Positions 37,699-37,886 of a DNA stretch of 38,041 nucleotides are shown piece by piece. Below the pieces are notes generated by a model. That model searched no databases and was not told where the DNA came from. It saw only the letters and a list, made by a program, of their open reading frames with translations. This DNA comes from Bacteroidales bacterium (GTDB taxonomy: Bacteria; Bacteroidota; Bacteroidia; Bacteroidales; UBA932). Location: assembly GCA_024689985.1 (NCBI GenBank), contig JAILCZ010000005.1, positions 1-38,041 on the forward strand, read 5' to 3'. A program made the translations under genes and the position numbers. Within the stretch, counting starts at the first letter, position 1; every line of letters starts with the position of its first letter.

Positions 37699-37733
37699 AA
37701 AAAAACGACCCGCCAACTTGAATTGGCAGGTCG
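37699..37733 (-). terminator. Intrinsic terminator in the cysK leader (attenuator)
   Basis: Minus strand CGACCTGCCAA-TTCAAG-TTGGCGGGTCG (11 bp, one G-U) followed by T7, located 32 nt upstream of the cysK ATG. Confidence 0.9.
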
Positions 37734-37762
37734 CTACGCTGTATGAATTTTTCGGTTCTTTT

Positions 37763-37837
37763 CTACACGCGTGCTGTACCGCACCAATTCATTTGGCCGG
37801 CCTTACAACAACAGTATGTAGAATAAAACTTGTTCAT
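37763..37837 (-). CDS. Cysteine-rich leader peptide (24 aa) upstream of cysK
   Basis: ATG AAC AAG TTT TAT TCT ACA TAC TGT TGT TGT AAG GCC GGC CAA ATG AAT TGG TGC GGT ACA GCA CGC GTG TAG = MNKFYSTYCCCKAGQMNWCGTARV; lies between a consensus promoter and an intrinsic terminator. Confidence 0.85.
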   Translation of the reverse strand: MNKFYSTYCCCKAGQMNWCGTARV

Positions 37838-37855
37838 ATTTTCTTTTGACTTGAG

Positions 37856-37886
37856 CAAATATAACGAACCGAAAATAAAATCCAAA
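37856..37886 (-). promoter_or_regulatory. Promoter of the cys leader-cysK-cysE operon: TTTG (37886-37883), 19-nt spacer, TATATTTG (37863-37856)
   Basis: Exact TTTG-N19-TAnnTTTG match, 18 nt upstream of the leader-peptide ATG. Confidence 0.85.

Follow-up and report, generated by a model that had tools for sequence, protein, structure and literature searches.

The 38,041-nt stretch of DNA analyzed here (the window) comes from a gut member of the Bacteroidales whose closest named relative is Candidatus Cryptobacteroides onthequi. On its minus strand, positions 37886–37699 carry a promoter, a Cys-rich open reading frame (ORF) and an intrinsic terminator; cysK and a cysE-like gene lie downstream. 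The promoter, the short ORF, which is translatable, and the terminator share one transcription unit with cysK, the first structural gene. The −33 promoter element TTTG (37886–37883) is separated by 19 nt from the −7 element TATATTTG (37863–37856), and we take TTTG-N19-TATATTTG to be a match to the Bacteroidota −33/−7 consensus. The leader ORF, MNKFYSTYCCCKAGQMNWCGTARV (37837–37763), comprises 24 codons and a TAG stop, and contains three consecutive TGT codons (37813–37805) and a fourth Cys codon, TGC (37783–37781); its stop codon lies 39 nt past the Cys run. The terminator stem-loop (37735–37704) runs into a T7 tract (37705–37699). A preliminary description, made from the sequence alone, had placed this promoter and this four-Cys ORF correctly. 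The hairpin and T7 tract that it reported were also confirmed, but the stem has 13–14 pairs (about −21.5 kcal/mol) instead of the 11 bp given there.

The first structural gene (37667–36753, minus strand) encodes cysteine synthase A, with a score of 437 bits against NCBIfam TIGR01139 (cut-off, 351). The second (36749–35991, minus strand) starts 3 nt past cysK. Serine O-acetyltransferase models of NCBIfam score best for its product, although below their cut-offs (148 versus 210.65 for cysE and 139.6 versus 150 for EpsC). Of the cysK–cysE pair named in the preliminary description, cysK scores above its cut-off, and cysE is the best-matching model without reaching its threshold. A cysE-like relative was found within about 120 nt after cysK in nearly all relatives that carry the leader. 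Between the cysE-like gene and a convergent small ORF (35587–35841) lies a further hairpin, AAGAGCTGC..GCAGCTCTT (35850–35871). It has T runs on both strands, the minus-strand run being the weaker, and is probably a terminator common to both genes.

As bare DNA, TGYTGYTGY is not rare, occurring at 182 sites in the genome compared to 244 for the reversed control. An ATG ORF of 8–45 codons containing three consecutive Cys codons is much less common, appearing in 0.08–0.09% of shuffled 220-nt upstream regions. Since the bare motif is so frequent, the weight of the argument rests on the combination of elements and on their conservation. The upstream regions of cysK were gathered from about 240 loci, and a Cys-codon run followed by an intrinsic terminator was present at 44 of these, 35 of them non-redundant. 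The comparison with related Bacteroidales that the preliminary description had proposed was thereby carried out, and both Cys codons and hairpin proved to be conserved in layout across dozens of divergent relatives, with compensatory changes in the hairpin. In the 35 non-redundant leaders, the runs consist of 2–6 codons, written as TGT (90) and TGC (33). The geometry is shared: the ATG stands about 8 codons ahead of the Cys run, the stop codon follows 36–39 nt past the run in most leaders, and the terminator lies 16–98 nt upstream of cysK at the non-redundant loci. Most homologous leaders are preceded by a −7-like box containing TTTG. The leader ATG is only 6–9 nt past this TTTG in about half of them, making the mRNA nearly leaderless; in the window, the ATG follows the −7 element after 18 nt (37855–37838).

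Leader-bearing loci belong almost entirely to the genus of the window (Candidatus Cryptobacteroides-like) and one sister genus of the same family, and their CysK is nearly always at least 70% identical to that of the window. Among full-length cysK genes at or above this identity, 33 of 73 have the leader, a count in which one locus (L207) was scored as lacking it, yet is a repeat of another (L011). Where an ORF ends within 60 nt upstream of such a cysK, the leader was found in 1 of 27 cases; where no upstream ORF comes that close, it was found in 32 of 46. The near-exclusion of the leader by a close upstream ORF indicates that it accompanies cysK units having their own promoter. When the search was extended to those cysK genes in the order whose products share less than 70% identity with the CysK of the window, the combination of leader and terminator was not found, save in one Phascolarctobacterium metagenome-assembled genome (MAG).

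Several individual loci deviate from this pattern. A contig titled Muribaculaceae (JAKSMA010000060.1) has the same leader type and a CysK 85% identical to that of the window, and is probably either a mislabelled Cryptobacteroides-like MAG or the product of a recent transfer. At two loci (L085 and L092), a terminator-like hairpin precedes cysK and no Cys leader ORF is present; these hairpins are possibly relics left after leader loss. One further locus (L294, G010:C169) retains the conserved Cys leader, but a deletion starts in the terminator region and reaches into cysK, of which a short remnant is left; an unrelated gene comes next. The locus represents either a decayed attenuator–cysK unit or an assembly join.

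The specificity of the association was examined with a covariance model (R1) built from the leaders. Searching the window's own genome returned a single match, the present site. In 121 genomes of the genus, the genuine matches belong to cysK, including one cysK remnant and one copy truncated by a contig end. Three other genus matches (L296, L297 and L298) have no Cys leader ORF and were set aside as chance. Against 248 genomes of the order, R1 gave only weak matches outside the family, at most 34.7 bits; the two of these that were aligned are ordinary CCTGCC terminators and were treated as chance.

Three mutually competing pairings can be drawn in the leader RNA: a 1:2 protector hairpin, a 2:3 antiterminator and the 3:4 terminator. 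Region 1 (37809–37793) takes in Cys codons 2 and 3. In the 1:2 hairpin, GGUACGG pairs with the last Cys codons and the RCC that comes after them, so that the protector overlaps the regulatory codons. Region 2, UGAAUUGGUG (37791–37782), is the 5′ strand of the antiterminator; it lies within the ORF and starts 13 nt past the last Cys codon. In nearly all leaders this distance is 10–15 nt, and in most of them region 2 is likewise inside the ORF, 11–17 nt ahead of the stop. Region 3, UGCCAAUUCA (37728–37719), is common to the antiterminator and the 5′ arm of the terminator. The 2:3 consensus pairs region 2 GAUUGGUA with the terminator arm UGCCAGUC, corresponding to UGAAUUGGUG with UGCCAAUUCA in the window. 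The leaders thus combine conserved tandem Cys codons, a terminator with compensatory changes and, just past the regulatory codons, an antiterminator that excludes it.

Covariation was quantified in an alignment of 38 leaders (A1), which excluded near-duplicates, L029 and three leaders with an early stop or a poor fit (L010, L209 and L224). For 2:3, 94.8% of cells were paired and 50 double changes were counted. The covariation score was 0.542, compared to 0.296 in shuffles; sliding the partner by 1–3 columns reduced pairing to 17–48%. Clear covariants include GGUUGGCAGG:CCUGUCAAUC (L007), AGGAUGGUGCA:UGCAUCAUCCU (L108) and CGAUGACCGGCG:UGCCAGUCAUCG (L103). The 3:4 stem was paired in 85.9% of cells with 66 double changes, and 1:2 in 83.6%, with weaker, modest covariation. 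The stretch from stop codon to terminator showed hardly any conservation in A1. A swap test was performed on 35 leaders, with L010, L209, L224 and L029 kept in. Region 2 fitted the terminator arm of its own leader with a mean of 21.0, versus 16.6 for the arms of other species, and none of 100,000 permutations reached the observed value; for 1:2, 2 of 100,000 did. As this test retains leaders outside A1, the covariation claim does not depend on the choice of alignment. Shuffled region 2 fitted the terminator arm with a mean of 14.2, and the window taken alone gave p = 0.013. Of the leaders, 20 read the region-2 core in frame 0, 7 in frame 2 and 1 in frame 1. A frame that differs between species indicates that the RNA pairing is conserved and not the peptide.

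RNA folding was consistent with a switch between these pairings. When the window's leader RNA was kept from pairing up to 10 nt past the Cys run, and region 4 was not yet present, the 2:3 antiterminator formed (−25.0 kcal/mol), and the lowest-energy fold at this stage includes 2:3 in all 35 leaders. In the whole, unoccupied RNA, the terminator forms in the window and in 27 of 35 leaders. Once region 4 is present, the window terminator is thermodynamically favored even with a ribosome stalled at the Cys codons, so the outcome must be decided by kinetics, which is also how other attenuators work.

On this basis, cysK–cysE is very probably controlled in cis by ribosome-mediated transcription attenuation that senses charged tRNA-Cys. 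The anatomy, its conservation, the fixed spacing and the covariation of 2:3 and 3:4 (weaker for 1:2) are observed; translation of the leader, ribosome stalling and a response to cysteine are what these features predict. As RNA polymerase makes the leader, a ribosome would translate the 24-codon ORF. With ample cysteine, it would clear the Cys codons and either cover region 2 or let region 1 pair with it behind, leaving region 3 available to region 4, and transcription would terminate at the T7 tract. With scarce cysteine, the ribosome would halt at the Cys codons, before reaching the nearby region 2; region 2 could then capture the emerging region 3 (UGAAUUGGUG:UGCCAAUUCA); the terminator would not form and cysK–cysE would be transcribed. 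Because region 2 is inside the ORF and a ribosome parked at the stop codon would cover it only in part, termination when cysteine is abundant probably depends on region 1 pairing with region 2 once the ribosome has passed. This incomplete cover of region 2 counts against attenuation, as does the thermodynamic preference for the window terminator. So do the modest covariation of 1:2, the early stop codon of a few leaders (L008, L010, L209, L224 and L248), which precedes region 2 or falls inside it, and the absence of a leader from most cysK genes outside the clade. The trp/his-type layout with cysteine as effector, put forward in the preliminary description, is supported by the conserved arrangement and by covariation in 1:2 and 2:3. 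Its term 'complete' was premature, as no antiterminator had then been identified, but is now backed by the 2:3 and 1:2 pairings.

The same elements could arise in other ways. The ORF could be there by chance, next to a terminator that simply ends the upstream gene, neither having a regulatory tie to cysK. This might be suspected given how frequent TGYTGYTGY is as bare DNA and how ubiquitous short ORFs are, and the few relatives that retain a terminator alone before cysK (L085 and L092) would fit such an origin. An ORF of this kind is nevertheless expected in less than 0.1% of upstream regions, yet 44 loci have one, at a fixed spacing and with region 2 covarying, and the promoter sits between the upstream gene and the leader. 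Conservation and covariation have already refuted this explanation, leaving it practically no probability. Direct binding of a metabolite or of uncharged tRNA-Cys to the leader RNA, as in a riboswitch or T-box, would set the terminator and make the ORF incidental. Cysteine genes of Firmicutes are under T-box control, and the leader is indeed structured and ends in a terminator. We consider this very unlikely: there is little conservation from the stop codon to the terminator, the Cys codons are kept as codons (both TGT and TGC) while the region-2 frame varies, and no T-box, riboswitch or other Rfam family matches. The Rfam search, also suggested in the preliminary description, gave no match to the window at either gathering or loose thresholds.

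The leader might also act mainly on translation or through Rho-dependent termination, as proposed for the Cys-rich leaders of mycobacteria. Actinobacterial Cys-rich leaders have no intrinsic terminators, and Rho has been suggested for them (PMC1262725); the leaders that begin 6–9 nt past the −7 TTTG, about half of the present set, are nearly leaderless, as in mycobacteria. Here, however, cysK is preceded at the non-redundant loci, by 16–98 nt, by an intrinsic terminator that is strong, covaries and has a T tract, and it is precisely this stem that the antiterminator opposes. A main role in translation or Rho-dependent termination is therefore very unlikely, and attenuation at the intrinsic terminator is preferred.

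Judged by every feature that sequence can reveal, the leader is a classical ribosome-mediated cysteine attenuator, and we infer its function from sequence. It shares with the trp, his, phe, thr, leu and ilv attenuators a short ORF in which codons for the amino acid being made stand in tandem, alternative 1:2, 2:3 and 3:4 hairpins, and an intrinsic terminator followed by the first gene. It differs in its use of Cys codons, in its occurrence in Bacteroidota, in being often almost leaderless, in its unrelated sequence and in having region 2 inside the ORF, with the stop 11–17 nt beyond in most leaders. Attenuation by Cys codons has precedents in other phyla. The uORFC-8-2 motif upstream of cysS in Rhodobacterales combines a Cys-codon ORF with an intrinsic terminator, and ribosome-mediated attenuation was inferred for it (PMC8632094). 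It resembles the present leader in its tandem Cys codons within a short ORF and the terminator that follows, but controls a cysteinyl-tRNA synthetase, occurs in Alphaproteobacteria and has two Cys codons near positions 14–15. The mycobacterial Cys-rich leader ORFs mentioned in the preliminary description are confirmed as a precedent: mycobacterial cys operons and Bifidobacterium cbs are preceded by leader ORFs with Cys runs and no terminators (PMC1262725), and the mycobacterial polycysteine leaders are reported to respond to cysteine (Canestrari 2020, as cited in PMC9094748). As here, the Cys runs of these actinobacterial leaders sit in short ORFs that precede genes for making cysteine. They differ in that the run is near the stop, no terminator hairpin follows and Rho or another mechanism has been suggested, whereas in the window the stop is 39 nt away and a strong terminator is present.

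Within Bacteroidota, a study of Flavobacterium psychrophilum whose main text does not name cysteine inferred attenuation by leader peptides at amino-acid operons (PMC9723704), and such attenuation was suspected for short ORFs in long 5′ untranslated regions of Bacteroides thetaiotaomicron (PMC7366714); a Bacteroid-trp RNA (RF01692) is listed in PMC2864571. These cases come from the same phylum with attenuation proposed or suspected, and their main texts name no cysteine attenuator. The open-licence literature yielded no paper describing one in Bacteroidota, although absence there is not proof. The novelty that the preliminary description had left to be checked therefore narrows: cysteine leader attenuation has precedents elsewhere and leader-peptide attenuation has been inferred in the phylum, but a cysteine version in Bacteroidota seems previously undescribed.

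RNA-level control of amino-acid genes is little studied in Bacteroidota, and the leader provides a concrete example, a cysteine attenuator backed by covariation, from a gut lineage of this phylum that is large and mostly uncultured. It would mark cysK genes tuned to cysteine supply. Classical attenuation needs a ribosome close behind RNA polymerase, so a conserved attenuator implies transcription–translation coupling in Bacteroidota, for which the leader could serve as a simple reporter. Bacteroidota mostly initiate translation without Shine–Dalgarno sequences. More tentatively, and at less than even odds in our judgment, the leaders may constitute a clade-specific family of cysteine attenuators defined by a region 2 embedded in the leader ORF and by an often almost leaderless mRNA. 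Such a family would require immediate ribosome loading on A-rich RNA lacking a Shine–Dalgarno sequence and translation that keeps pace with RNA polymerase, and would make coupling in Bacteroidota directly testable.

The Phascolarctobacterium MAG has Cys-rich leader ORFs (MYRTSDKMSNMCCC... and MMKNTCCQNCRLCC...) with intrinsic terminators before cysK (L029/L311) and before a second cysK of the same genome (L312). At L029, a region past the Cys run, UCCCGGACA, complements UGUCCGGGA at the terminator, which points to an independent cysteine attenuator in Negativicutes; the full layout is clear in just 1 of about 29 loci checked in the family of L029. Upstream of another cysK in that family (L316), the leader ORF ends in MCCC-stop with no terminator visible by eye, resembling the mycobacterial layout.
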